From Chakrabartia godavariana (GTDB taxonomy: Bacteria; Pseudomonadota; Alphaproteobacteria; Sphingomonadales; Sphingomonadaceae), in assembly GCA_005518185.1 (NCBI GenBank), contig RKSN01000001.1, forward strand, positions 1,116,501-1,180,500: DNA of 64,000 nt, given 5' to 3'. Made by a program: the position numbers and the translations under genes. Below the pieces are notes generated by a model. That model was not told the origin of the DNA. It ran no database searches and worked only from the letters and a program-made list of their open reading frames with translations. Below, in pieces: positions 32,679-51,747 of the stretch. Numbering within the stretch: position 1 is the stretch's first letter; the number at the start of each line of letters is the position of its first letter.

Positions 32679-34571
32679 TCAGGCGAAAAGCCGGCTGAGC
32701 GACTTTTCGAGCATGACCAGCTGCCACAGCAGCCGACCATTGTCGGCAAGGCCCGCCTTATGGTCCCGCGCGGCCCGGGCGATGATCGCCGGGTCGAACC
32801 ATCCGGTCTCGGCCAGCGTTGAGCTGGTGGCGAGATCAGCGGCGTCTCCGGCCAGCGGACCTTTGAACCAGTCAGAGATCGGCGTGACGAACCCCATTTT
32901 GGGCCGGTAGAGGATGTCTTCTGGCACATGGCCTTCCATGGTCTTCTTGAGCAGCCACTTGCCCTCGCCGCCGCTCAGGCGCAGCGATACCGGCAGGCGC
33001 GCGGCAAATTCGACCAGACGATAATCAAGCAGGGGTTCGCGCGCCTCCAGGCTGACGTTCATGCTGGTGCGATCCACCTTGGTCAGGATGTCGCCCGGAA
33101 GCCAGATCTTGAGGTCGGCATATTGCGCCCGGTCAAGCGGGTCGCGCGCGGGCGCTCCGGCCATGGCGGCAAGATAGCGGTCTTCCGCACGGTGCCCCTG
33201 CAGCGCTGACGTGAACGTCGGGGAAAACAGGCGGGCGCGATGCTCCGGCAAGGTGATCCCGACCGCGCGGGCATAGGCCTCCGCGCCATTTCGGGCGAGC
33301 GACTGAAATGTCGTCTTGGCCCTCAGCGGACGCGGGGCCCAGTCCGCCTTGGGGTAAATGCTGGCAAGCCCCCCGAACACACGACTGCGCAGGCCGGCTG
33401 GCAGCAGGCCGCGCACGCGCTCCTCAGCATGCTGGAAGCGGTGCCGACGGTAGCCGGCAAAGGCTTCATCCGCCCCGTCGCCCGACAGCGCGACCGTCAC
33501 GGTCTCGCGCGCCAGTTGGCAGACGCGCCAGGTCGGCAGCGCCGACGCATCGGCAAAGGGCTCATCAAAGGCTGCGGACAGGGTATCGATCGCGCCGAAA
33601 TCATCGGGTGAGACGATCCGCTTGCGGTGCCGCGTCCCGAAGCGCGCGGCGATGCGGTCCGCATAATGCGTCTCATCAAGCGCATCGACGTCAAAGCCTA
33701 TGGAGCAGGTTTCAACTGGCGCGTTGCTGATCTCCGCCATGAAGGCAACGACCGTTGAGCTGTCTACCCCGCCCGACAGAAAGGCACCGAGCGGAACGTC
33801 AGACACCATGCGCGACGCCACGGCGTCATGAAGCAAATGGCGCAATTCCTCTTCCAGCGAGGCGAGCGATGCCGTCGTGCGCATGCTGAAATCTATATCC
33901 CACCAGGTGACGGGCGCGGGGGCCGGCTTGCCGCGGCTGAGCAGGAGATAGCTCCCCGCAGGCAATTTGCGCAAGCCGGCCACGATGCAGCTGTCATCGG
34001 GGACATAGCCGAAAGCCATATAATCCTCGACCGCACGGACATCGGGTTCCCGGCGGACGGCGGGATTGGCCAGCAGGCCCTTCAATTCCGAGGCAAAGGC
34101 GATGCTGCCATCGGCGAGTGCTGCGTAATGCAGCGGCTTTACGCCGAACCGGTCGCGCGCGAGGAACAGCTGCTGCGTCCGGCTGTCATGGATCGCAAAG
34201 GCGAACATGCCGTTGAGACGCGGCAGAATGTCCGCACCCCACTGGCGATAGCCGTGCAGGATGACTTCGGTGTCGCCTTGTGTGGCGAAGACATGGCCCA
34301 GCCGCTGGAGTTCACCCCGCAAGTCGCGGAAGTTGTAAATCTCACCATTGAAGACAATGGCCAGCGCCCCATCCGCCGACAGCATCGGCTGCGGGCTGCC
34401 CGCAACGTCGATGATCGACAGGCGCCGATGGCCCAGCCCGACGCCAGGTGCGGTCCACACGCCCGATCCGTCCGGCCCGCGATGCGCCTGCGCGTCCGCC
34501 ATCGCGCGCACACGTCCTTCCGCAACCGGCTTGGCAGTTTCGAGGTGAAAGAGACCGGCTATTCCGCACAT
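32679..34571 (-). CDS. XrtA-associated amidotransferase (asparagine synthase-like)
   Basis: Glutamine-hydrolysing AsnB-like enzyme: Cys2 nucleophile after Met1 (MCGIAGLFHLE), Ntn-type glutaminase domain (about 1–200), then the ATP pyrophosphatase domain with SGGVDSS at 266–272. Length 630 aa. Its position next to exosortase A identifies the 'amidotransferase 1, exosortase A system-associated' group. The amide acceptor is unknown; it may be a sugar acid or an amino-acid-like group on the exopolysaccharide. Ends the minus-strand XrtA run; starts 3 bases after xrtA. Confidence 0.88.
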   Translation of the reverse strand: MCGIAGLFHLETAKPVAEGRVRAMADAQAHRGPDGSGVWTAPGVGLGHRRLSIIDVAGSPQPMLSADGALAIVFNGEIYNFRDLRGELQRLGHVFATQGDTEVILHGYRQWGADILPRLNGMFAFAIHDSRTQQLFLARDRFGVKPLHYAALADGSIAFASELKGLLANPAVRREPDVRAVEDYMAFGYVPDDSCIVAGLRKLPAGSYLLLSRGKPAPAPVTWWDIDFSMRTTASLASLEEELRHLLHDAVASRMVSDVPLGAFLSGGVDSSTVVAFMAEISNAPVETCSIGFDVDALDETHYADRIAARFGTRHRKRIVSPDDFGAIDTLSAAFDEPFADASALPTWRVCQLARETVTVALSGDGADEAFAGYRRHRFQHAEERVRGLLPAGLRSRVFGGLASIYPKADWAPRPLRAKTTFQSLARNGAEAYARAVGITLPEHRARLFSPTFTSALQGHRAEDRYLAAMAGAPARDPLDRAQYADLKIWLPGDILTKVDRTSMNVSLEAREPLLDYRLVEFAARLPVSLRLSGGEGKWLLKKTMEGHVPEDILYRPKMGFVTPISDWFKGPLAGDAADLATSSTLAETGWFDPAIIARAARDHKAGLADNGRLLWQLVMLEKSLSRLFA

Positions 34572-34574
34572 GGC

Positions 34575-36131
34575 CTATCGGCGCGCGTCCGAAATTGCCC
34601 GCGTCGCGAGCTGCCCGGGGTTTCCGAGTGCGTTGGCAAAGGCCCGGACGGTGTCGTCTGCCGCCTTCCCGTCGCGATCCTGTGCGGACACGATGACCGC
34701 ACCCACCGCCTGATTGCGGCCGAAAAGGCGCGCAGTCATGGTGTCGAGCTTCACCCTTAACGCAGAGCCCGTCGTCCGGCCGCCTGCAACATACCATGTC
34801 GCTGCCAGCCGACGCACCGGGCCCGGCGCCGTCAGATATTCGGTATGGGCGTCTTTGATCATTGGCCCAGCCGAGGACCAGACCCAGCGGCGCGCGTCAA
34901 GCCCCGCCGCGCCCTGTCCATAACCGACCAGTTCGCGGCCTTCCTCCTGCCAGGCATAGAGAATGATCGCGAGATCGACCCGTTCCCCGCGCGGGCCCGC
35001 ATAATGGCCGATCACAAGATGATTGGCGCCCTTGTAATGCGGTGTCCAATCGGGGGTATCCGTGGTCTGCGTGCGCGTCCAGCCGGGAATATCGGGAAGC
35101 GTGACTGGCCCCGACAGCGGCACCCGCCCGATCGCGCTGCTGGCACTCGACCATCCCAAGGCAAGGACGGGCAGCAGCATCGCCACAATCACCGGACGCT
35201 TGCCGACGTTGGGCCGCGCCGAAGCGCCCACACCGCTCGTCAGCCAGGGGTCGGTCAGCTTCCGGTCAAAAAAGGGCCAGGCCATCGCCATGACAAGCGC
35301 CATCACGGCGGCGAAGAAAAACCAGCCATAGAGCACATGGTCAAACCCAGACGCCGTGTCGGCCGTTGTCAGATAGCCCACATACATGGTCGCAAAGGCG
35401 CGCACGCCATTGGCGAGGATCGGGACCGCCACACAGGCAAGAAGGAAGGCGACCCGCCTTGGCCAGCTGCGGAAACACATGTTGGCGACGAGCGCGCCGT
35501 AGGCGACCATCGCCACCAGAAACTTTACGCCCGCGCACGCTTCGGCCACCTTGTAATAGCCATTGGGCGTGGTGATGAAGATGCCTTCGATATGCGCAGG
35601 GATGCCCGCCAGATCGAGCAGCGCCATCGACATGCGCGCGGTCAGGGTCTGCAGGACCGGAAGAAGCTCCTCCCCCACAGGCACCATGAAGAGCAGATAG
35701 GCGACCGGAAAGAGCAGCGCACGAGTCAGCGCAAGGCCGAGGCACAACGGCACGAGCGCCTGCAGCATGACGACGAGGCCCGCCTGTCTCGCGAGAGCAA
35801 CGCCACCCGCGTCGCCCAGCATCCAGAGCAACGCGCCCGCCGCCATCGGAACGAACCCGAGCCAGCTACCACTCGGCGGAACATGCACGATCTCGTCACG
35901 CCGCTGCCAGGCGAGCCAGATCGCAAGGAACGGGATCAGAGCGCAGTGATTAAAGGTCGATGCGTGAAGCCAGATTCCGACCAGATCCCGCGTGTCTGAG
36001 GCAAAAAGGGCAAGAAGCATGACGGCGCCAGCGCACATCGCCAAGAGCGCGTCGCGCCAGCGCCGGGATGCGTCCAGACGGGCGCCCGTATCCGCCGACC
36101 CGCAGTCCACCTCCGATGCGATGCTGGTCAC
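34575..36131 (-). CDS. xrtA: Exosortase A fused to an EpsI-like domain
   Basis: Membrane transpeptidase that processes PEP-CTERM proteins. About eight helices in residues 30–290 hold the catalytic Cys199 (ACAGVKF), Arg244 (ANGVRAF) and His265 (FDHVLYGW). A C-terminal domain (about 315–510) with PDIPGWTRTQ, YKGANHLVIGHYAGPRGERV and LAATWYVAGGRTT matches EpsI (DUF3485), a partner that is often a separate gene. Length 518 aa fits the fused form. It overlaps the glycosyltransferase gene by 4 bases. Confidence 0.92.
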   Translation of the reverse strand: MTSIASEVDCGSADTGARLDASRRWRDALLAMCAGAVMLLALFASDTRDLVGIWLHASTFNHCALIPFLAIWLAWQRRDEIVHVPPSGSWLGFVPMAAGALLWMLGDAGGVALARQAGLVVMLQALVPLCLGLALTRALLFPVAYLLFMVPVGEELLPVLQTLTARMSMALLDLAGIPAHIEGIFITTPNGYYKVAEACAGVKFLVAMVAYGALVANMCFRSWPRRVAFLLACVAVPILANGVRAFATMYVGYLTTADTASGFDHVLYGWFFFAAVMALVMAMAWPFFDRKLTDPWLTSGVGASARPNVGKRPVIVAMLLPVLALGWSSASSAIGRVPLSGPVTLPDIPGWTRTQTTDTPDWTPHYKGANHLVIGHYAGPRGERVDLAIILYAWQEEGRELVGYGQGAAGLDARRWVWSSAGPMIKDAHTEYLTAPGPVRRLAATWYVAGGRTTGSALRVKLDTMTARLFGRNQAVGAVIVSAQDRDGKAADDTVRAFANALGNPGQLATRAISDARR

Positions 36132-37339
36132 GCGGCGACCTGTCGGGCGTTCATGCCGATATAGCTTGCCAAGGGGGCGAGCTTTGCAGCCCAGCTGTAG
36201 CGCGCCTCCATCGCCGCGCGTGCAGCGGCCTCCATCGCGACCCGTCGTGCGGGGTCATGCAGCAAGGAGAGGACGGCATCTGCCTGCGCGGGGGCCGTTT
36301 GCGCAATCAGCAGTTCCTTTCCGTGGCAGGCGTCGATCCCCTCGGCGGCCTCGGGAGAGGCCACAACGGCCTTGGCCGATGCCATCGCCTCCAGCACCTT
36401 GTTCTGGATGCCGCGCGCAATGCGGAGCGGCGCGACCACCACTTGTGCCGCCGACAGCCAGGGGCGTGTGTCCGGAACTTCGCCGGTCACGATGACGCCG
36501 GGCAAGGCGCCAAGCGCCCGCACCGCCTCGGTCGGCGCGCGGCCGACAACCGCAAAACGGGCATCGGCCTGCCGGTCACGGATGAGCGGCAGGACCTCAT
36601 GCGCGAACCACGTCACCGCATCGATATTGGGCAGATAGTCCATTTGCCCGGTGAAGACGATCAACGGGGCATCTCCCGCCGCCTGCGGACGCGGCCATGT
36701 ACCGGCACAAAAACGCGTCAGATCGACACCATTTTCGAGTACCGCCGTCGCGGGCTCGGCCAGACCGGAGACGCGGCGGAACAGCGCTTCCTCGGCCGCA
36801 CTGACAAAAAGTGACACATCCGCGCGAGCCGCCACCGCCCTCTCGAACCGCAACAGCCACGCCGCCTCGATCCGGTTCGCCAGACCGCTCACCCCGCCCG
36901 CCTTTGCGTAGGAGGCGAACTTCTGCGAATCGACATCGGTAAAGTCCATGACGAAGCGCGGCCCCTGCCCGCCTGTCGGCGCATATTGGGCCATTTGTCC
37001 CGAAAAGACGTATATCACGCGGACGGGATAGGCCGCCATCGCGGCGCTGACGGCTTTGGCGAAAGCGGCGGATCGGAACAGTTCCACCGAGGCCGGGCGA
37101 CCCGACAGCAATGACGCGGCCATCGCGCCAATCTTTGTCCGGCGGTGGGGGATCAACTGAACCGAAGCACAGACCTCCACCAGTGCAGCGGACGCCGCGT
37201 CATCCGCCTCACCAAAGGAGACGAGATGAACGGGCGCAATGTCTGCGAGCGCGTTCAGGATGTTCCAGCTGCGGATACTGTCCCCCCGGTCCGGTGGAAA
37301 AGGCCGCCGGTGGGCGAGAAACAGGATGTCGCCCGTCAT
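36128..37339 (-). CDS. XrtA-associated glycosyltransferase (PEP-CTERM/XrtA family, GT4-like)
   Basis: Starts MTGDILFLAHRRPFPPDRGD, a hallmark of the XrtA-linked glycosyltransferase group (TIGR03087-type). It has the GT-B fold pattern, ENGVDLTRF in the middle and the nucleotide-sugar region PLRIARGIQNKVLEAMASAK. Length 403 aa. It presumably adds a sugar to the lipid-linked repeat unit at the inner membrane face. Start ATG 37339 overlaps the FemAB-like gene stop by 4 bases. Confidence 0.88.
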   Translation of the reverse strand: MTGDILFLAHRRPFPPDRGDSIRSWNILNALADIAPVHLVSFGEADDAASAALVEVCASVQLIPHRRTKIGAMAASLLSGRPASVELFRSAAFAKAVSAAMAAYPVRVIYVFSGQMAQYAPTGGQGPRFVMDFTDVDSQKFASYAKAGGVSGLANRIEAAWLLRFERAVAARADVSLFVSAAEEALFRRVSGLAEPATAVLENGVDLTRFCAGTWPRPQAAGDAPLIVFTGQMDYLPNIDAVTWFAHEVLPLIRDRQADARFAVVGRAPTEAVRALGALPGVIVTGEVPDTRPWLSAAQVVVAPLRIARGIQNKVLEAMASAKAVVASPEAAEGIDACHGKELLIAQTAPAQADAVLSLLHDPARRVAMEAAARAAMEARYSWAAKLAPLASYIGMNARQVAA

Positions 37340-38397
37340 CCCAGCCCCCGCGAGATCCACGGCCCGATCCTGTTTGCGACCGGCAGTGGCAGCTTCTGCC
37401 ACAAGGAGACTTGCAGCCGATATTTGGGGCTGAGCGGATTGACGTTGCGCAGCGGCTGTCCATCCACGGACCGCTTGGCATAGCGCAGGGTCTCGGGCGC
37501 GAAGCCGAAATTCTTCTTGAAGGCCGCCGGGCCTGTCCCGACCTTGGACCGTCCGAAGTCAAAGCTGTGGCAACCCTTGTCACGTCGGGCGTGGCACATC
37601 AGCGCATAATACATCAGGTCATTTGCGCGCCAGCTTCGCGCCCCCGCGACGCCGCCGCCCCAATAGGGCATGACGACCCCCTTGTGATAAAGCGACAGGA
37701 CTGAGGCGAGCGGTTGCCCCTTATGGTGGACCGTCAGGATATCAGCTTCGTCGCCGAACGCAGCCAGAACCTCGGTAAACAGCCGCTTCGGGAAGACCGG
37801 CGTGCCAAGGTTGCGGACGCTTTCGGCATAAACGCGGTAATGATGGTCGATATCTGTGGGGCCAACGCCCACAGTGACATCAAGGTCAAAACCCAAAGCC
37901 CTTCGCACCTCGGCCCGCTGCTTGCGCGGAATGGCGCGCAGCTGCGCGTCATCATCCTCGGCCAGCGGCTGACGGAACCCGACATAGGTCTCATCGTCGA
38001 TCACCCAGCCCCGTTCGGGGAGCACACCACCACGCAGTTCGACGGTCGGGCAGCCGCACTTTTCCGCAAGCGCAAGAGCGGCGTCTGCCAATCCCTGCGC
38101 ATCGCCCAGCTGGCCGCCGCCCACGGCAAATGCCGCCGACACCAGCGCATTGCCGAAGAGCGGCGAGCGGACCTCGTGGAGGGGTAGCACGGCCATGATC
38201 TCCCGGCCGCGCGCCGCGAAGAGATAATGCGCGCGCGCGCCGCAAGCCCGTTGAACGGCACGGCTCCAAGCGGGCAAATGAAAAGGCGTCGACTCTGGCT
38301 GAAGTCGCACGAAGTCCTCGATTGCGGAGCAAATCTGGGGATCGGCCAGATCCGCAACGCGGGTCTCAACGGATGCAATCCTGCTGACGGCGTTCAT
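37336..38397 (-). CDS. FemAB-like XrtA/PEP-CTERM-associated protein
   Basis: GNAT-fold protein of the FemAB-related group found in XrtA loci. The N-terminal half has FHLPAWSRAVQRACG; the C-terminal half carries ANDLMYYALMCHARRDKGCH and FDFGRSKVGTGPAAFKKNFG, typical of these proteins. Length 353 aa. FemAB enzymes transfer amino acids from aminoacyl-tRNA; here the donor and acceptor are unknown. Start ATG 38397 overlaps the deacetylase stop by 4 bases. Confidence 0.86.
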   Translation of the reverse strand: MNAVSRIASVETRVADLADPQICSAIEDFVRLQPESTPFHLPAWSRAVQRACGARAHYLFAARGREIMAVLPLHEVRSPLFGNALVSAAFAVGGGQLGDAQGLADAALALAEKCGCPTVELRGGVLPERGWVIDDETYVGFRQPLAEDDDAQLRAIPRKQRAEVRRALGFDLDVTVGVGPTDIDHHYRVYAESVRNLGTPVFPKRLFTEVLAAFGDEADILTVHHKGQPLASVLSLYHKGVVMPYWGGGVAGARSWRANDLMYYALMCHARRDKGCHSFDFGRSKVGTGPAAFKKNFGFAPETLRYAKRSVDGQPLRNVNPLSPKYRLQVSLWQKLPLPVANRIGPWISRGLG

Positions 38398-39239
38398 GAA
38401 AGCCACGCCCGTTCGCGCGCGACGACCTCATCCACGCGCGCCCACGCAAAGTCATGCGTCACCCGGCGCAGCTTTCCTGCCATCGCGCCGAGGTTGGGAT
38501 AATGCCGCAACTTGGATTTGAGCGGCGCATTGCGAACAAAGGGCTGGCCCGGGTCCATGTCCCAGGGATGGAAATAGAAGATCGCGGGCCGCCCCTCGCC
38601 ATTGACCCGCGCGATAGCGGCCCGTGAGACGGCGTAGGGCAGCAGCCGGAAAAAGCCGCCGCCGCCCGCCGCGAAGTTGCGACCGGCGATCTTCACCGTT
38701 GATACCGGCAGTTCCAGGAGATCAGCATCGGAAAGCGGCTTCCACAGGAAGCGCGGCGATTCCGGCCAGCCATAGTGGTCGTGCAGGAGCGGCGCCACGC
38801 TTGATGAATACGCGTAGCCGGCCTCCGCCAGAAGGCCATGCGCCCATGGCGTGCGCTGGTCGATCGAGAAATTCGGCGCGCGGTACCCCGTGACTTCGGT
38901 GCCGGATGCATCCTCAAGCTGTGCCTTGGACGCCGCAATATCGCGGGCGAATTCGTCTGGCGTCATCTGGAACACACGCTTGTGGTCGCAGCCATGGCTG
39001 GCCACCTCATGCCCCTGCGCAGCGATGCGCTGCATCAGCGCGGGGAAGCGTTCGGCAACCCAACCCAGCGTGAAGAAGGTCGCCTTGACCCCGCAGTCAT
39101 CAAACAGCTGCAGCACAGCATCGGTATTGCGTTCGACCCGAACCTCATGGCGCGGCCAGTCTTCGCGCGAGATGACAGTTTCAAAGGCACCGACCTGGAA
39201 CCAGTCCTCCACATCGACGGACAGCGCATTGCGGATCAT
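38394..39239 (-). CDS. XrtA system polysaccharide deacetylase
   Basis: NodB-like carbohydrate esterase family 4. The metal site is DVEDWF (residues 9–14) plus His82 and His86 in SHGCDHKR; TGYRAPNFSI and YFHPWDMD are further catalytic-region motifs. Length 281 aa. It likely removes N-acetyl groups from the exopolysaccharide. No signal peptide is evident. Lies 12 bases after the ATPase gene. Confidence 0.9.
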   Translation of the reverse strand: MIRNALSVDVEDWFQVGAFETVISREDWPRHEVRVERNTDAVLQLFDDCGVKATFFTLGWVAERFPALMQRIAAQGHEVASHGCDHKRVFQMTPDEFARDIAASKAQLEDASGTEVTGYRAPNFSIDQRTPWAHGLLAEAGYAYSSSVAPLLHDHYGWPESPRFLWKPLSDADLLELPVSTVKIAGRNFAAGGGGFFRLLPYAVSRAAIARVNGEGRPAIFYFHPWDMDPGQPFVRNAPLKSKLRHYPNLGAMAGKLRRVTHDFAWARVDEVVARERAWLS

Positions 39240-45226: not shown

Positions 45227-46459
45227 TCAGGGTGCCACGCCGACGATGATCTCGCCCGCCGGTGGATGACCCAGAAAGGCGGCCGGGCTCGCCGTTGCGC
45301 CATAGGCACCTGCCATGAAGACGGCGATGACGTCACCTTCCTCCGCACGCGGCAGAAGGACCTGATCCCCCAGCCGGTCGAGCGGCGTGCACAGGCACCC
45401 GACGACCGTGGCGACCTCGGTTGCAGGCGTCTCAAATCTGGACGCCACCGCGATGGGATAGTTGCGGCGGACGACCGTCCCGAAATTGCCGCTGGCCGCC
45501 AGCTGGTGATGCATCCCCCCATCGGTCACCAGAAAGATTTCGCCATGGCTGATCTTTCGATCGATCACACGTGTCAGATAGACCCCGGCCTCGGCCACGA
45601 GATAGCGACCAAGCTCAATTGCGAAAGCAGTTTGTGCAAGAATATCAGATCTTTGATCAATATTCTTGCCAAGCGCTTCGCCAACCTTCCGGACATCGAG
45701 CGCCACATCATTCGGGAAGTAGGGCACGCCAAACCCGCCGCCCAGATTGACGAACGGCGGTGCTTCGCCAACCTCTTCGGCAAGCCGCGCGGCGAGCGCG
45801 ATGGTCTGCGCCTGTGTCTCCGAGATGGCCCCGGCGTCGAGCGCCTGCGACCCGGCAAAGATGTGAAAGCCGCGCCAGTCCGCGCCTGCTGCCAGGATTG
45901 TGCGTACCATCGCCGGAACACGCTCGGCATCGACGCCGAACGGCTTCGCGCCGCCGCCCATACGCATGCCCGATCCCTTCAGATCAAAGTCTGGATTGAC
46001 ACGCACGGCCAATTTGGGCGTCGTTGAAAGCCGCTCGGCAAGGTTCAGCGCCCGGCGCAACTCACCTTCAGATTCCAGGTTGAGAACAATCCCGGCCCTG
46101 ATTGCGGCTTCCAGTTCGGCATCGGTCTTCCCCGGCCCTGCAAACGAGATATGGCGCGCGCCAGAGTCCCGCGCGATCTGCAGCTCTCCGCCCGATGCCA
46201 CGTCGAGCCCGTCCACCAGCGGCGCCATGAGTTTCACCAGCTGGGGCAGCGGGTTGGCCTTGATCGCGTAATGCAGGCCAAGCGACGGTGGCAACGCTTC
46301 TCTCAGAAGAGAGATACGTTCTTTAATTATCTGTAAATCATAGACAAAAAGTGGCGTCTGGATATCCGATGTGAAGATATCGCTGACCTTCTGTCCGCCG
46401 ATGAGCAGTTCATTGTCACGGCCGACATATCCTGGCGGAATGGGACCCATCGGTTTCAT
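45227..46459 (-). CDS. XrtA-associated PLP-dependent decarboxylase
   Basis: Fold-type III PLP enzyme of the diaminopimelate/ornithine decarboxylase family. PLP lysine is Lys67 in LHYAIKANP; GLDVASGGEL, FAGPGKTDAEL and FVNLGGGFGVPY are conserved. The C-terminal substrate region has VVGCLCTPLDRLGDQV with the family Cys. Length 410 aa. This is the 'exosortase A system-associated' subgroup; the substrate is unknown, and no lysine- or arginine-pathway genes are nearby. It overlaps the acyl-CoA ligase stop by 4 bases. Confidence 0.88.
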   Translation of the reverse strand: MKPMGPIPPGYVGRDNELLIGGQKVSDIFTSDIQTPLFVYDLQIIKERISLLREALPPSLGLHYAIKANPLPQLVKLMAPLVDGLDVASGGELQIARDSGARHISFAGPGKTDAELEAAIRAGIVLNLESEGELRRALNLAERLSTTPKLAVRVNPDFDLKGSGMRMGGGAKPFGVDAERVPAMVRTILAAGADWRGFHIFAGSQALDAGAISETQAQTIALAARLAEEVGEAPPFVNLGGGFGVPYFPNDVALDVRKVGEALGKNIDQRSDILAQTAFAIELGRYLVAEAGVYLTRVIDRKISHGEIFLVTDGGMHHQLAASGNFGTVVRRNYPIAVASRFETPATEVATVVGCLCTPLDRLGDQVLLPRAEEGDVIAVFMAGAYGATASPAAFLGHPPAGEIIVGVAP

Positions 46460-47979
46460 GCGTCAGCCCCTTCCAGAAAATGCGCGCGGATCGCCACACG
46501 GTCGAGCTTGCCATTGGGATTGCGCGGCAGGTCATCCCACCAGACGGTGCGCGCAGGCTGCATGAAGTTCGGCAGTTCCTGTCGCAGATGCTGTTGCAGC
46601 GCGGCCTCTTTCAACGCCTCCCCCCGCACGACAAGGCAGATCGCCTGCCCGAGCCGCGCATCTGGGACACCAAAGGCCACCGCCTCGCGCACCCATCCGC
46701 TGGCAATGGCGGCGTCCTCGATTTCGGCCGGGCTGATGCGGTTACCGGAGCTTTTGATCATCTCGTCATCGCGCCCGACAAAATAAAGCAGCCCGTCTGC
46801 GTCGCGACGCACCGTATCGCCGGACCAGACAGCCGTGCCGCCATAGGCCGAAAACGCGGGCGCGGGCCGGAAGCGCGACGCAGTTCGCTCGGCATCCTTC
46901 CAATACCCCTTTGCGACCAGCGGCCCCGCATGCACCAGCTCACCGGGTTCATCGGGTGCGGCTTCGGTGCCATCCCGCCGGACCACCATGATCTCGGCAA
47001 AGGGGATTGCCCGGCCCATTGAGGTCGGGTGCGATCCGACAAGAGCCGGATCGAGATAGGTCGAGCGAAACGCCTCGGTCAGGCCATACATCGGGAAAAG
47101 CCGCGCGGATGGAAATGTGCCTTGCATGGCGTGCACGAGCGGAACGGTCAACGCGCCGCCCGAATTGGTCAGGCGCCGCACCTTCGCCGCCACCGTCTCT
47201 GGCCAGTCCGCTTCGCACAGCTGGATCCACAAAGGCGGAACACCGGCGATGGTTGTGACGTCATGACGGTCAACCGCCTTCACCACGTCGCGCGCCATCA
47301 GATAATCGAGCGGGATGACCGTGCCACCACCGGCCCAGGTCGAAAGCAGCTGGTTCTGCCCGTAATCGAAACTGAGCGGGAGCACGCCAAGCACACGGTC
47401 CTCAGGCACGATCTCGAGATAATGCGCCACGCTGATCGCCCCCAGCCACATATTGGCATGGCTCAACATGACGCCCTTGGGCCGCCCAGTGGACCCGGAG
47501 GTATAGAGGATGGCGGCCAGACTGTCCGGGTCTTCCGCCGATGCCGGCAAGGCGTCTGACTGTTCCGACAGTGCCAGAAGCGCATCTTCAAGCATCAGGG
47601 TGCAGCTTTGCGCCACGTCGCCCTCTTCGAGCAGCATGGCCCGGCTGCCGGCGGTGATCAGCATCGACGCGCCGCTGTCTTCGAGGATATAGGCCAGCTG
47701 CGCCCGCTTCAGTGCAGGATTGACCGGCACATGAATGAGACCGGCCCGCGCAGCCGCGAGCGGCATCAGGCACGCGACGCGCGTCTTGGGCAGCCACGTC
47801 GCAACCCGTTCGCCGCGCTGCAGCCCTTGGGCACGGAGCGCGGCCGCGAGGCGGCCCACCAGATTTTCGAGCGCCGCGTAAGAAATTGTTTCATCGCGCA
47901 TGATAAGTGCGACCCGGTCCGGATCGCCGCGCAATGTCAGGTGGTCCAGCGGATAAGGCGTCGGGTCGGGGGATTGCAC
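46456..47979 (-). CDS. XrtA-associated acyl-CoA ligase (AMP-forming)
   Basis: ANL-superfamily adenylating enzyme. P-loop ILYTSGSTGRPKGVMLSH, MYGLTEAFRST, SGDTVRRDADGLLYFVGRDD and the C-terminal lysine NPNGKLDR are all intact. I chose GTG 47979 because GAAGGAAG precedes it; this gives 507 aa, while the longer frame lies in the divergent spacer. It probably activates a carboxylic or amino acid and loads it on the acyl carrier protein encoded at 49074–49343. Confidence 0.88.
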   Translation of the reverse strand: MQSPDPTPYPLDHLTLRGDPDRVALIMRDETISYAALENLVGRLAAALRAQGLQRGERVATWLPKTRVACLMPLAAARAGLIHVPVNPALKRAQLAYILEDSGASMLITAGSRAMLLEEGDVAQSCTLMLEDALLALSEQSDALPASAEDPDSLAAILYTSGSTGRPKGVMLSHANMWLGAISVAHYLEIVPEDRVLGVLPLSFDYGQNQLLSTWAGGGTVIPLDYLMARDVVKAVDRHDVTTIAGVPPLWIQLCEADWPETVAAKVRRLTNSGGALTVPLVHAMQGTFPSARLFPMYGLTEAFRSTYLDPALVGSHPTSMGRAIPFAEIMVVRRDGTEAAPDEPGELVHAGPLVAKGYWKDAERTASRFRPAPAFSAYGGTAVWSGDTVRRDADGLLYFVGRDDEMIKSSGNRISPAEIEDAAIASGWVREAVAFGVPDARLGQAICLVVRGEALKEAALQQHLRQELPNFMQPARTVWWDDLPRNPNGKLDRVAIRAHFLEGADA

Positions 47980-48028
47980 TCTACTTCCTTCAGGCCCAAT
48001 TTTGTTTGGTGAATGCGGGGCTAGCACA

Positions 48029-49072
48029 ATGCGGGTTAAAGGGGAGTTGTTGGATGACCTGTCCGCCGTTGCCGCCAGATTTGGCTCGCAATTGTCGGAT
48101 GCCGCGCAGCACAGCCTGTTTGACCGGCTCGACTGGTTTGCGCTGACGCAGCAGCATATCTGCCCCGAAGCCCGCCCGCTGATCGCGCATGCCGAAGCCG
48201 ACGGCCATGACGCATGGATGTTCCTGCGCAGGACCGGAAAGGCATCGGCAGAAGGTCTGTCCAGCTGGTATACGCTTGCCTATCGGCCCGTCTTTTCGCC
48301 CGGTGCGCCCGATGCAGCGCGGCTGAAACTGCTGCACGGCCTCGGACATCTGCTGCGGCGCGAACTCGCCACGTTCCGGATTGAGCCGGTTCCCGAGGCA
48401 GATGGCACCGCCGGGTTGCTGCAAAGGGCCTTTGGCGAAACAGGCTGGGTGGTCCATGCATGGCCGAAAACGGGCCACTGGTATACGACTGTCGGCGAAG
48501 GTGGCTTTGCGGCCTTCTGGACAGCCCGTCCGGGGCAGCTGCGCAGCACGCATGACCGCAGGGTGCGGAAGTTCCCCATGGACATCCATATCCATGACCG
48601 ACTCGATGCCGCCTTGTGGTCCGATTATCAGGCGGTCTTTGCCGACAGCTGGAAAGGCGACGAAGGGTCCCTGCCCTTCCTGCACGCCATGGCGGAAGCG
48701 GCGGCGCAGAGAGGCGCGCTCCGTCTCGGCATGGCACGCCATGACGGCGCTCCGGTCGCGGTCCAGCTCTGGACCATCGACCATGGTCACGCCATCATCC
48801 ACAAACTCGCCTATCGCGACGACGCAGCGGCGATGTCGCCGGGCACAGTGCTGTCGGCGGCCCTCTTCCGTCATGTCATCGACGTCGATCGGGCTGAGAC
48901 CATCAGCTACGGCACAGGCGACGACGGCTATAAGCGCGACTGGATGGACCAGCGCGAACAGCTTCACAGTTTGGAATTCTTCAACCCAATGCGGGTTACA
49001 GGCTTGCTCGGCATGGCCAGATCGTCTGTGAGCCGCACGGCCTCTGCTCTCAAACGTCGAAAGAAGAATTAG
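48029..49072 (+). CDS. XrtA-associated GNAT-like protein (BioF2-like)
   Basis: 347-aa protein with a C-terminal acyltransferase fold: FADSWKGDEGSLPFLHAMAE, GAPVAVQLWTIDHGHAIIHK and VIDVDRAETISYGTGDDGYK. It is related to the FemAB/'acetyltransf_6' group and recurs in XrtA loci. The acyl donor could be the carrier protein encoded next. Start ATG 48029 leaves only 49 bases to the divergent ligase gene. Followed after one base by the ACP gene. Confidence 0.78.
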   Translation: MRVKGELLDDLSAVAARFGSQLSDAAQHSLFDRLDWFALTQQHICPEARPLIAHAEADGHDAWMFLRRTGKASAEGLSSWYTLAYRPVFSPGAPDAARLKLLHGLGHLLRRELATFRIEPVPEADGTAGLLQRAFGETGWVVHAWPKTGHWYTTVGEGGFAAFWTARPGQLRSTHDRRVRKFPMDIHIHDRLDAALWSDYQAVFADSWKGDEGSLPFLHAMAEAAAQRGALRLGMARHDGAPVAVQLWTIDHGHAIIHKLAYRDDAAAMSPGTVLSAALFRHVIDVDRAETISYGTGDDGYKRDWMDQREQLHSLEFFNPMRVTGLLGMARSSVSRTASALKRRKKN

Positions 49073-49073
49073 A

Positions 49074-49343
49074 GTGTCCAACGAACGCGCCGCCCTCGCG
49101 GCAGAAATCCGCATTCTCCTGTCCGACGTGCTCGGCATCCCCCCCGAGCGTGCGAGCGCTTTCGACGATGATACGGAACTGTTCGGCGCGCTGCCCGAAC
49201 TCGATTCGATGGCCGTGGCCAACCTGCTGGCCGAGCTGGAGGATCGCATGGAGATCATCGTCGACGCAGATGAAGTCGATGGTGACATGCTTGGCACCTT
49301 CGGCGCGCTGGTCGACTTCGTCGACCGGAAAAGACGGCCGTGA
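49074..49343 (+). CDS. Acyl carrier protein, XrtA-associated
   Basis: 89-aa carrier protein. The phosphopantetheine serine is Ser45 in LPELDSMAVANLLAELED, within the standard four-helix pattern. Start is GTG with a weak ribosome-binding site, 1 base after the GNAT-like gene. It is not the fatty-acid ACP (no fab genes nearby) but a dedicated carrier of this locus. Overlaps the next gene by 4 bases (GTGA). Confidence 0.9.
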   Translation: MSNERAALAAEIRILLSDVLGIPPERASAFDDDTELFGALPELDSMAVANLLAELEDRMEIIVDADEVDGDMLGTFGALVDFVDRKRRP

Positions 49344-50008
49344 CACTGGCAAGCCGGTGGATCGGCGACATACCGGCGATCGAAACCGGATCAGATAAAC
49401 CACGCAAGATTATTGTCTTAGCGCCTCTCTTTGAGGAAGCGAACAAGGTCCGGCGGACCTTGGCCCTCCTGTTGCGGCGTCTGGCAGCGGCGGATCTCCA
49501 CGCCGTCATGCCGGACTTGCCCGGCATGGGCGAACATCCGGCACATCTTGAGACAACGACGCTGTCCGACCTTCGGGACGCGGTGGCCAAAGTTGCCGCA
49601 GCACTGCAATCGTCCGGGACGGTCATCGGAATCGCGAGCTTTCGCGCGGGCTGTCTCCTCGACGACGCGGCGGACGTGGCCGCGCATTGGCGGTTTGCGC
49701 CGGAAAGCGGCGACCGACTGGTGCGAACGCTGATGCGGACCGAAGACACCACTCAATCGGACGAGACGCACGCCTTTGTTTCGGGGCAATCCGTCCGACG
49801 CGACCTTCTGGACGATCTGAGCGCCCAGCCTTTGAGTAGCCCTCCCCTGCTGCGGACGGTCCGGCTGGGCAGCGACCGCGCGGACGCCGATCTGCATGTG
49901 CCGGGCAGCCCGCTCTGGCGCCATGCCGAACCCGGTGAAGACCCGGCGCTTGCGCAACTGCTGGCCGAGGACATTGTGACGTGGATGCGGTCATGCGCCG
50001 TTTCCTGA
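49340..50008 (+). CDS. Hydrolase 2-like, XrtA-associated (nucleophile elbow not canonical)
   Basis: 222-aa alpha/beta-hydrolase-like protein: APLFEEANKVRRTLALLLRR and VMPDLPGMGEHP match the N-terminal half of 'hydrolase 2, exosortase A system-associated'. At the expected nucleophile elbow it reads GIASFRAGCLL, which has a Ser but not GXSXG. It may be catalytically altered or non-enzymatic. Starts with GTG overlapping the ACP stop; its end overlaps the next gene by 16 bases. Confidence 0.75.
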   Translation: MTLASRWIGDIPAIETGSDKPRKIIVLAPLFEEANKVRRTLALLLRRLAAADLHAVMPDLPGMGEHPAHLETTTLSDLRDAVAKVAAALQSSGTVIGIASFRAGCLLDDAADVAAHWRFAPESGDRLVRTLMRTEDTTQSDETHAFVSGQSVRRDLLDDLSAQPLSSPPLLRTVRLGSDRADADLHVPGSPLWRHAEPGEDPALAQLLAEDIVTWMRSCAVS

Positions 50009-50790
50009 GCTTTGATTATGACGGCGCGACGCTTCAGGCGACGCTTGACGACGGCGACGGCCGGACCGGCCTCCTCATCGTCTCGGGCGGGAATGAGATT
50101 CGAGTCGGCGCGCACCGGGGCATGGCGCGTCTGGCCAGCGACATTGCAGGCGAAGGCTACCCCGTGTTTCGTTTTGACCGGCGCGGCGTGGGTGACAGCG
50201 ACGGAGCCAATGCAGGCTTTGAATCAAGCGGGCCTGATCTCCGGGCCGCCATTGCCGCCTTCCGCGCCGCCTGCCCGGACATGACCCGCATGATCGCCTT
50301 CGGCAATTGCGACGCAGCAAGCGCGCTCCTGCTGCACGCGCCCGAGGGGATCGACGCGTTGGTCCTTTCCAACATTTGGGTCGTTGAGCCGACCGACGAT
50401 CTGCCGCCGCCTGCCGCGATCAAATCGCATTACCGGCAACGGTTGCGAGACCCGAAAGCGTGGCGCAGCCTGCTGTCAGGCGACGTGAACATCGGAAAGC
50501 TTCTGTCCGGCCTCCGCCGCCTTGCGGCCCCGGCTGTGCCCTCTCCGCTCTCAGACAGGATCGCACGCGCTATGGCCGACGGCCAAGTGGAAGCGACGAT
50601 CCTGCTCGCCAGCCGGGACGGTACCGCCCGGTCCTTTGCCGAGGCTTGGGCGACACGCCCATTTGAAGCCGCGCGCGCCAGCGGCCGCTATCGGGTGGTG
50701 GAATTTGACAGCAGCGCGCACAGCTTCGCGCGCGCCGCTGACTACGCCGTGCTGCGCTCAGCTATTCTGGAGCGCCTCAGCGGGGGTTGA
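49993..50790 (+). CDS. Hydrolase 1-like, XrtA-associated
   Basis: 265-aa alpha/beta hydrolase: VSGGNEIRVGAHRGMARLA, FRFDRRGVGDSDG and FGNCDAASALLLHAP match 'hydrolase 1, exosortase A system-associated', in which an Asp occupies the nucleophile elbow (GNCDAAS). A C-terminal His in SSAHSFARA could complete a triad. Possibly an ACP thioesterase. Start ATG 49993 was preferred to GTG 49981. Its end overlaps the convergent trxB by 33 bases. Confidence 0.82.
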   Translation: MRRFLSFDYDGATLQATLDDGDGRTGLLIVSGGNEIRVGAHRGMARLASDIAGEGYPVFRFDRRGVGDSDGANAGFESSGPDLRAAIAAFRAACPDMTRMIAFGNCDAASALLLHAPEGIDALVLSNIWVVEPTDDLPPPAAIKSHYRQRLRDPKAWRSLLSGDVNIGKLLSGLRRLAAPAVPSPLSDRIARAMADGQVEATILLASRDGTARSFAEAWATRPFEAARASGRYRVVEFDSSAHSFARAADYAVLRSAILERLSGG

Positions 50791-51747
50791 GGCGCGCGCT
50801 GCAAAGTCGGCATGGGCCAGAAAACGTTCGGCATCGAGCGCCGCCATGCATCCCATGCCAGCCGCCGTCACAGCCTGACGGTAAACCTTGTCGGTCACAT
50901 CGCCTGCCGCAAACACCCCGGGGATGCTCGTGCGGGTGCTGCCCGTCTCGACCAGCAGATAACCCTCATCATCCATGGGCAGATGGCCGGCGAAAACATC
51001 GGTCGCCGGCTTGTGACCGATGGCAACAAACGCCCCATCGGTTTCGAGATGGGAAAGCTCTCCGGTGACGGTGTCACGCAGGTCGAGGCCGGTCACCACT
51101 TCGGGCGAACCACTGCCGACGAACCGCTCCACGGCCTTGTTCCAGAGGACCTTGATGCCGGGATGGGCAAACAGGCGGTCCTGCAGAATCTTTTCCGCGC
51201 GCAGGCTGTCGCGCCGATGGATGAGCGTGACTTCCGGGCTGTGGTTTGTGAGATAAAGTGCCTCTTCGACAGCCGTGTTGCCGCCGCCGATCACAACGAC
51301 CTTCTTGCCGCGGTAGAAGAAGCCGTCGCACGTGGCGCAGGCGGAAATGCCCTTGCCCTGCAGGGCGGCTTCACTGTCGAGGCCGAGCCATTTGGCCTGG
51401 GCACCCGTTGCGATCACCACGGTGTCAGCGATGTAGATATCCCCGCTGTCGCCGGTCAGGCGGAAGGGGCGCTGCGAGAAATCAACGTCCGAAATGATGT
51501 CCCACACCATCTGCGTGCCGACATGTTCGGCCTGCGCCTGCATCTCTTCCATCAGCCAAGGGCCCTGAACGACATTGCGGAATCCAGGATAGTTCTCGAC
51601 ATCGGTGGTGATGGTCAGCTGGCCGCCAGGCTGCAGCCCCTGCACGACGATCGGCTTGAGGCCAGCGCGTGCGGCATAGATTGCCGCCGAAAGACCCGCC
51701 GGGCCGGACCCCATGATGAGCATGCGCGTGGTGATCGTCTTTGACAT
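50758..51747 (-). CDS. trxB: Thioredoxin-disulfide reductase
   Basis: Low-molecular-weight FAD/NADPH flavoprotein. The FAD motif GSGPAGLSAAIYAARAG is at 13–29, redox CATC at 137–140 (CATCDGFF), and NADPH-binding VVIGGGNTAVEEALYL follows. The C-terminus FAAGDVTDKVYRQAVTAAGMG is typical. Length 329 aa. It is not part of the XrtA locus but ends convergently inside the last codons of hydrolase 1. Confidence 0.96.
   Translation of the reverse strand: MSKTITTRMLIMGSGPAGLSAAIYAARAGLKPIVVQGLQPGGQLTITTDVENYPGFRNVVQGPWLMEEMQAQAEHVGTQMVWDIISDVDFSQRPFRLTGDSGDIYIADTVVIATGAQAKWLGLDSEAALQGKGISACATCDGFFYRGKKVVVIGGGNTAVEEALYLTNHSPEVTLIHRRDSLRAEKILQDRLFAHPGIKVLWNKAVERFVGSGSPEVVTGLDLRDTVTGELSHLETDGAFVAIGHKPATDVFAGHLPMDDEGYLLVETGSTRTSIPGVFAAGDVTDKVYRQAVTAAGMGCMAALDAERFLAHADFAARASTPAEALQNS

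Follow-up and report, generated by a model that had tools for sequence, protein, structure and literature searches.

What do an acid-activating ligase, a pyridoxal phosphate (PLP) decarboxylase and an acyl carrier protein (ACP) contribute when they are encoded next to an exosortase? This question is raised by a 64-kb stretch of Chakrabartia godavariana contig RKSN01000001.1, hereafter the window, in which such a module lies beside the exosortase A (XrtA) locus. The original prediction placed six genes in one module, these three together with a GNAT protein and two hydrolases. All six are present about where they had been placed, but only the ligase, the decarboxylase and the dedicated ACP are strictly held together. 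We think it moderately probable that they form a carrier-protein-dependent amino-acid decarboxylation unit, the product of which is transferred to a surface sugar.

The conserved three-gene unit

Co-occurrence was surveyed in 398 sampled genomes of the phylum, and a family scoring over its curated cut-off was counted as present. The TIGR03099 decarboxylase was present in 29 genomes and the TIGR03098 ligase in 28, every one of them among the 29. In the 29th decarboxylase genome (G398), a ligase scoring 549 bits lies 97 bp from the decarboxylase. The two genes are at most 500 bp apart in 27 of the 29 genomes; the exceptions are G536, with a 3.8-kb gap, and G375, where they are 1.9 Mb apart. Fisher's test gave p = 4e-42 for the ligase with the decarboxylase and p = 6e-30 for XrtA with the decarboxylase, values that were not corrected for kinship and overstate the evidence, since the sampled genomes include relatives. 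A profile of the ACP matched all 29 module genomes at E 1e-6 and none of 21 others (nine that have XrtA and lack the module, G299 and 11 more). Because 11 of the 29 genomes had contributed rows to the profile, 18 of these matches are independent.

Gene content was counted in 80 loci drawn from named genomes, almost all of which bear Sphingomonadales titles. A class survey, with 10 of 289 matching at E 1e-80 and seven over cut-off, served as a source of loci only. Upstream counts use the 65 loci in which 4.2 kb or more precede the ligase (15 were dropped at contig ends) and downstream counts the 68 with at least 9.5 kb downstream (12 were dropped); presence in a locus was called with score thresholds that we chose. 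The ACP was scored in 64 of the 65 loci, each hydrolase in 57 and the GNAT gene in 45. In the 65th locus (L040) the ACP is present but fused to the GNAT gene, which brings the ACP to 65 of 65. The expectation that all six genes always co-occur did not survive these counts, and a six-gene obligate unit was rejected. The strict unit is three genes only: the ligase, the PLP decarboxylase and the dedicated ACP. FemAB was also rejected as an obligate partner of the trio, since it follows XrtA instead.

Proposed loading and decarboxylation on the carrier

An activating ligase of TIGR03098 is present as predicted, but "acyl-CoA ligase" is a misleading name for it, because its residues are VinN-like. 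VinN (PDB 3wv4/3wvn) was the top match of the substrate-binding part and the best single-stretch match of the full-length protein in the PDB; above it at full length stood five sequences of one gramicidin synthase and one other peptide synthetase, each in two stretches. According to PMC11284099, VinN adenylates 3-methylaspartate and loads the ACP VinL, and VinO then decarboxylates on the carrier. D221, S289 and R321 of the window ligase (counted from the start at 48027) align with VinN D230, S299 and R331, the Asp for the amino group and the Ser and Arg for the alpha-carboxylate. After three of 79 fetched ligases (<450 aa) were left out, D221 and R321 were found in 77 of 77 aligned ligases, with Ser (74) or Thr (3) at position 289. 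All 17 relatives from outside the family also have the Asp and the Arg, and position 289 is Ser in eight, Thr in eight and Ala in one. Seven of the 22 other ligase stretches of the same genome were examined, and none of these paralogs has the VinN-type Asp and Arg.

The closest PDB matches of the decarboxylase are BtrK entries 7ru7 and 2j66 (E 2e-77 and 3e-77), whereas the best diaminopimelate (DAP) decarboxylase reached only E 5e-44. Identity is 38% to BtrK and 28% to the genome's own LysA. The motif LCTP[LI]D is found in 80 of 80 family members (the window plus 79) and LCT[PS]xD in 19 of 20 outside-family decarboxylases; the window enzyme has LCTPLD and BtrK LCTPED, whereas the own LysA has CESGD. 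A tree with long branches sets the decarboxylase apart from LysA with support of 93/93, just below the program's mark. A carrier protein and a ligase accompany the decarboxylase in the same genome in 29 of 29 cases. According to PMC7857480, the BtrK substrate is glutamate bound to the carrier protein BtrI. The window decarboxylase, to judge from its sequence, most likely acts on an ACP-bound amino acid, and its product would then be an omega-aminoacyl group. This assigns a step to an enzyme that the original prediction had left unplaced in the pathway.

The general family names would also fit ordinary metabolism, with a fatty acyl-CoA ligase and a DAP or ornithine decarboxylase standing side by side by chance; the lysA model gives the decarboxylase 225 bits, and a long-chain acyl-CoA ligase model gives the ligase 285 bits. 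Both scores are under their cut-offs (298 and 476), a separate LysA scoring 441 bits is encoded elsewhere in the genome, the VinN residues are absent from the tested paralogs, and the trio co-occurs strictly. An ordinary acyl-CoA ligase paired with a DAP decarboxylase was rejected on these grounds, and we regard a chance neighbourhood as highly improbable.

Carrier-bound decarboxylation is very probably the logic of the unit. The ligase would take an acidic amino acid, L-aspartate being the likeliest, and adenylate its side-chain carboxyl, with D221 holding the alpha-amino group and S289 and R321 the alpha-carboxylate, and would load the activated amino acid onto the ACP phosphopantetheine to give aspartyl(beta)-ACP. 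The Asp-Ser of the ACP is invariant in 18 of 18 sequences. The PLP decarboxylase, given its relation to BtrK, would strip the alpha-carboxylate on the ACP, yielding beta-alanyl-ACP from Asp or gamma-aminobutyryl (GABA)-ACP from Glu. Conserved residues and close homology point to these two steps. The predicted scheme, in which an acid is activated, loaded onto the ACP and transferred, thus appears sound, as the VinN residues, the BtrK-type decarboxylase, the co-occurrence of the trio and one GNAT-ACP fusion suggest.

Which amino acid is loaded is less certain, and we give aspartate slightly better than an even chance. The ligase may be specific for aspartate or 3-methylaspartate, and a relative offers indirect support: in L144 (9313-14159, from genome G299), the ligase and decarboxylase genes flank one for a fused methylaspartate mutase. 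The mutase scores 450 bits to TIGR01503 and has its S and E parts in one 643-aa frame, the S-subunit-like part being under cut-off; a PIG-L-type de-N-acetylase frame and a glycosyltransferase lie near. In the vicenistatin pathway, as described in PMC11284099, a glutamate mutase makes 3-methylaspartate for the loading and decarboxylation steps. The mutase between the L144 ligase and decarboxylase favours an aspartate-type substrate.

Alternatively, L-glutamate could be activated at its gamma-carboxyl and converted to GABA-ACP as in butirosin biosynthesis, or the acids could vary among members. BtrK, the closest solved decarboxylase, yields GABA-ACP from glutamyl-ACP (PMC7857480). The ligases also show two pocket types, Tyr222/Ser289 in the window and 74 of the 77, and Ala222/Thr289 in six of the 17 outside-family relatives, which suggests two substrate classes, so that the acid may differ between lineages. 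(Eight Tyr/Ser and the six Ala/Thr sequences cover 14 of these 17 relatives, among L128-L147.) However, the binding residues match VinN, an aspartate-type ligase, and the L144 mutase points the same way; we consider glutamate, or a varying acid, unlikely.

The best reading of the unit is an antibiotic-type logic in a new surface-glycan setting. The vicenistatin proteins VinN, VinL and VinO, with the glutamate mutase VinH/VinI, likewise combine a stand-alone ligase, a stand-alone ACP and decarboxylation after loading, and a mutase occurs in L144 too. They feed a polyketide synthase in actinomycetes, whereas the module sits with exosortase and exopolysaccharide genes in proteobacteria; no polyketide synthase was seen among the window genes scanned. 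Butirosin BtrK/BtrI shares the LCTPxD motif and a small dedicated carrier protein, but its end product is an antibiotic. The butirosin loading enzyme BtrJ belongs to another ligase family. For the dehydro-beta-alanine unit of bolagladin, PMC7756342 proposes that, with BolO, BolC and BolN, Asp is loaded on a stand-alone ACP and then decarboxylated by a BtrK-like enzyme; its VinN-like ligase has the same residues as the window ligase, but the pathway feeds a nonribosomal peptide synthetase.

A ligase, a BtrK-like decarboxylase and a small carrier-like gene also occur in other settings at L146:5826-10924 and L147:8157-18623, the latter with a cytochrome P450 and a KAS III-like gene. These are apparently other biosynthetic clusters.

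Candidates for the transfer step

Transfer of the aminoacyl group off the ACP would fall to the FemX-fold protein, whose gene adjoins that of the ACP, or to the Cys-type alpha/beta-hydrolase. The acceptor would be a free amine, most likely on an amino sugar in the exopolysaccharide or in its lipid-linked precursor. The predicted fold, the gene position and the setting suggest this step.

The GNAT (PF13480) protein has a predicted tandem-GNAT FemX fold. A phmmer search with it found no match in the PDB at E 1, and its profile gave one weak unrelated match. The profiles of FemAB (TIGR03019) and of the GNAT-type transferase matched each other at E 5e-5 with probability 67. FemX itself uses an aminoacyl-tRNA donor. 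An ACP donor is proposed for the window protein from the gene position and from L040 (7161-8456), where the FemX-fold transferase and the ACP are fused in frame. A protein encoded before the ligase in L133 showed no relation to the GNAT profile in hhalign and no Pfam or NCBIfam family.

The real transferase could instead be the TIGR03100 hydrolase acting with a nucleophile-less partner, the protein encoded at 49340-50008. TIGR03100 is commoner than the GNAT gene, in 57 against 45 of the 65 loci, and in 12 against four (one of them weak) of 14 outside-family loci with a decarboxylase over 480 bits. Its C110, D213 and H247 are invariant in 25 of 25 aligned sequences, and its predicted structure has a pLDDT of 89. 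The nearest folds, however, are esterases and a thioesterase, which makes hydrolysis or proofreading equally likely, and the gene was not detected around the trio in G380, G651 or G425, or in L055 and L098, where a second FemAB gene stands. We regard this hydrolase as a possible but rather doubtful transferase. TIGR03100 is named once in PMC3584217, in a table.

Both predicted hydrolase genes are present, but the 49340-50008 protein is an unusual one: it falls short of the TIGR03101 cut-off and has Arg102 in 73 of 73 aligned sequences (over-long hydrolase frames were left out) where the motif pattern would place the nucleophile, with no Ser or Cys.

In L055, L075 and L098 no hydrolase gene was scored beside the ACP, and two FemAB genes stand in tandem. 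The second FemAB may replace the hydrolase pair there.

Exosortase setting and proposed surface-sugar acceptor

XrtA scored over cut-off in 35 of the 398 genomes, 26 with the module and nine without. All nine XrtA genomes without the module match FemAB (seven over cut-off, two less than 1 bit under), and the three module genomes without XrtA over cut-off (G380, G425 and G651) have no FemAB over cut-off either. FemAB therefore goes with XrtA, and the trio accompanies XrtA often but not obligatorily. It had been suggested that the amidotransferase and FemAB act in the same modification as the module; this is plausible by the Wbp/Vim analogy discussed below, but FemAB follows XrtA and not the module.

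A surface glycan is a plausible acceptor, to which we give an even chance. In G380, the ligase, decarboxylase and ACP genes are adjacent in a polysaccharide locus with glycosyltransferases, a deacetylase, a weak O-antigen-ligase match, a GFO/IDH oxidoreductase and a DegT-type aminotransferase. Should a surface sugar receive an amine-bearing acyl group made by the trio, both the role of the module and the attachment on PEP-CTERM proteins could be tested by mass spectrometry with a defined mass (+71 Da for beta-alanyl, +85 Da for GABA). Carrier-bound decarboxylation, described in antibiotic and related secondary pathways, would then enter general cell-surface biology, and the "hypothetical equivalog" families TIGR03098, TIGR03099 and TIGR03100 would gain concrete biochemical roles.

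It is also conceivable that the trio's product is a small diffusible compound or the head group of a lipid. The trio would then have no direct exopolysaccharide or sorting role, and other reasons would account for its company with XrtA. This would suit the three module genomes in which neither XrtA nor FemAB is over cut-off. The ACP reached 21 bits against an ornithine-lipid ACP model (cut-off 130), a weak match, and nothing else pointed to a surface lipid. XrtA is present in 26 of the 29 module genomes, and polysaccharide export and chain-length genes follow the module in 60 of 68 loci. In G580, moreover, about 24 kb separate the ACP from XrtA, even though the ligase and decarboxylase are far away. 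We think a separate small molecule or lipid improbable and retain transfer to a surface sugar.

An exosortase-system acyltransferase (TIGR03694), an autoinducer-synthase-like GNAT, follows the decarboxylase in G580 (L135:10765-11535).

The same product might serve the exosortase itself. In type IX secretion, according to PMC7468200, cargo C-termini are bonded to a seryl or glycyl sugar made with VimA, which also matches TIGR03019, the putative deacetylase VimE, and WbpS of the TIGR03108 family; its authors suggest that bacteria with exosortases may produce an aminoacyl sugar of similar kind and call the attachment on PEP-CTERM proteins an "unidentified compound". The window has TIGR03019, TIGR03006 and TIGR03108 over cut-off, with a VimE-like role proposed for TIGR03006. 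By analogy, a FemX- or FemAB-fold transferase would attach the beta-alanyl or GABA group to the amine freed by deacetylation on a lipid- or exopolysaccharide-linked sugar, and XrtA would join cleaved PEP-CTERM proteins to the free amino end as nucleophile. This would name the "unidentified compound". In the same source, VimA is held to add Ser or Gly, and the available text names neither a donor nor a ligase/ACP/decarboxylase trio. Among the window genes scanned there was no WbpA, WbpB, WbpD or WbpE sugar gene; the rest of the genome was not searched. In the nine of 35 XrtA genomes without the trio the donor would have to differ. We consider such a role of the trio a long shot.

Several observations weigh against the favoured reading of a carrier-bound decarboxylation unit serving a surface sugar. 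Below cut-off the families blur: TIGR03098 matches 47 of the 398 genomes at E 1e-130, 18 of them outside the 29, and TIGR03099 matches 106 at E 1e-80; of the 77 genomes with a below-cut-off decarboxylase, six neighbourhoods were fetched (L142-L147). L144 is itself under the TIGR03098 and TIGR03099 cut-offs, has Ala instead of Ser289 and did not yield the LCTPxD motif as searched, and G299 has no ACP match at E 1e-6, with one 16-bit frame only. No GNAT gene was scored in 20 of the 65 loci. Outside the family it was missing from 10 of the 14 loci, and the 28-bit match in one of the remaining four is weak; loci that lack it must rely on a different transferase. Two of the FemX-type matches, Sbb17 and Sba18, are aminoacyl-tRNA-dependent according to their titles, in contrast to the ACP donor proposed here, and the fold alone is thus no proof of such a donor. 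Among the 38 matching genomes from its genus the L040 fusion is seen once; 20 others have both frames in phase but parted by one stop, so a single stop-loss or a sequencing error could explain it. Finally, G380, G425 and G651 carry the module without XrtA or FemAB over cut-off (G425 has a distant exosortase of 128 bits), and no polysaccharide gene was recognised around the G651 trio, as judged from the opening residues of the neighbours, with no family search.

A search of open-access papers found none on this exosortase-linked module, which is no proof that none exists. Haft 2006 (PMC1569441) does not mention the ligase, decarboxylase, amidotransferase or FemAB.

The features are listed in Table 1, in which the predicted positions of XrtA, the amidotransferase and FemAB are confirmed.

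Table 1. Module genes and related genes of the XrtA locus in the window
Feature	Position	Strand	Score or remark
BtrK-like PLP decarboxylase (TIGR03099)	45227-46459	-	567 bits, cut-off 478
VinN-like amino-acid:ACP ligase (TIGR03098)	46456-47979	-	654 bits, cut-off 592
PF13480 ("GNAT") protein, predicted FemX-type aminoacyltransferase fold	48029-49072	+	probable start ATG 48029
Dedicated ACP, phosphopantetheine site PELDSMAV	49074-49343	+	PF00550, 30 bits
Alpha/beta-hydrolase-like protein, distant TIGR03101	49340-50008	+	33.6 bits, cut-off 203
Cys-type alpha/beta-hydrolase (TIGR03100), candidate transferase or thioesterase	49981-50790	+	217 bits
FemAB-family TIGR03019 (VimA-related), second aminoacyltransferase candidate	37336-38406	-	338 bits, cut-off 260
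XrtA-system polysaccharide deacetylase TIGR03006, VimE-like role proposed	38394-39239	-	397 bits, cut-off 276
XrtA-system amidotransferase TIGR03108 (WbpS-related)	32679-34571	-	912 bits, cut-off 817
Exosortase A with EpsI domain	34575-36131	-	TIGR03109 317 bits, TIGR02914 95 bits

The decarboxylase and ligase genes overlap by 4 bases. The ligase frame extends to 48027, with GTG 47979 as the likelier start, and the longest PF13480 frame begins at TTG 48002; between the likely starts the divergent gap is about 49 bp. To the left of the module lie XrtA-type export, chain-length, kinase, outer-membrane, ATPase, deacetylase, FemAB, glycosyltransferase, exosortase and amidotransferase genes, of which the kinase, the ATPase and the outer-membrane protein score under their model cut-offs. 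A second, distant exosortase-like match is found elsewhere in the source genome (G000:C3:405619-406392; 140 bits to the XrtA model, cut-off 208). On the right, the TIGR03100 gene converges with a thioredoxin reductase gene (50758-51747), and their ends share 33 bases (50758-50790); in 44 of the 65 loci a trxB gene was scored on the upstream side of the module.

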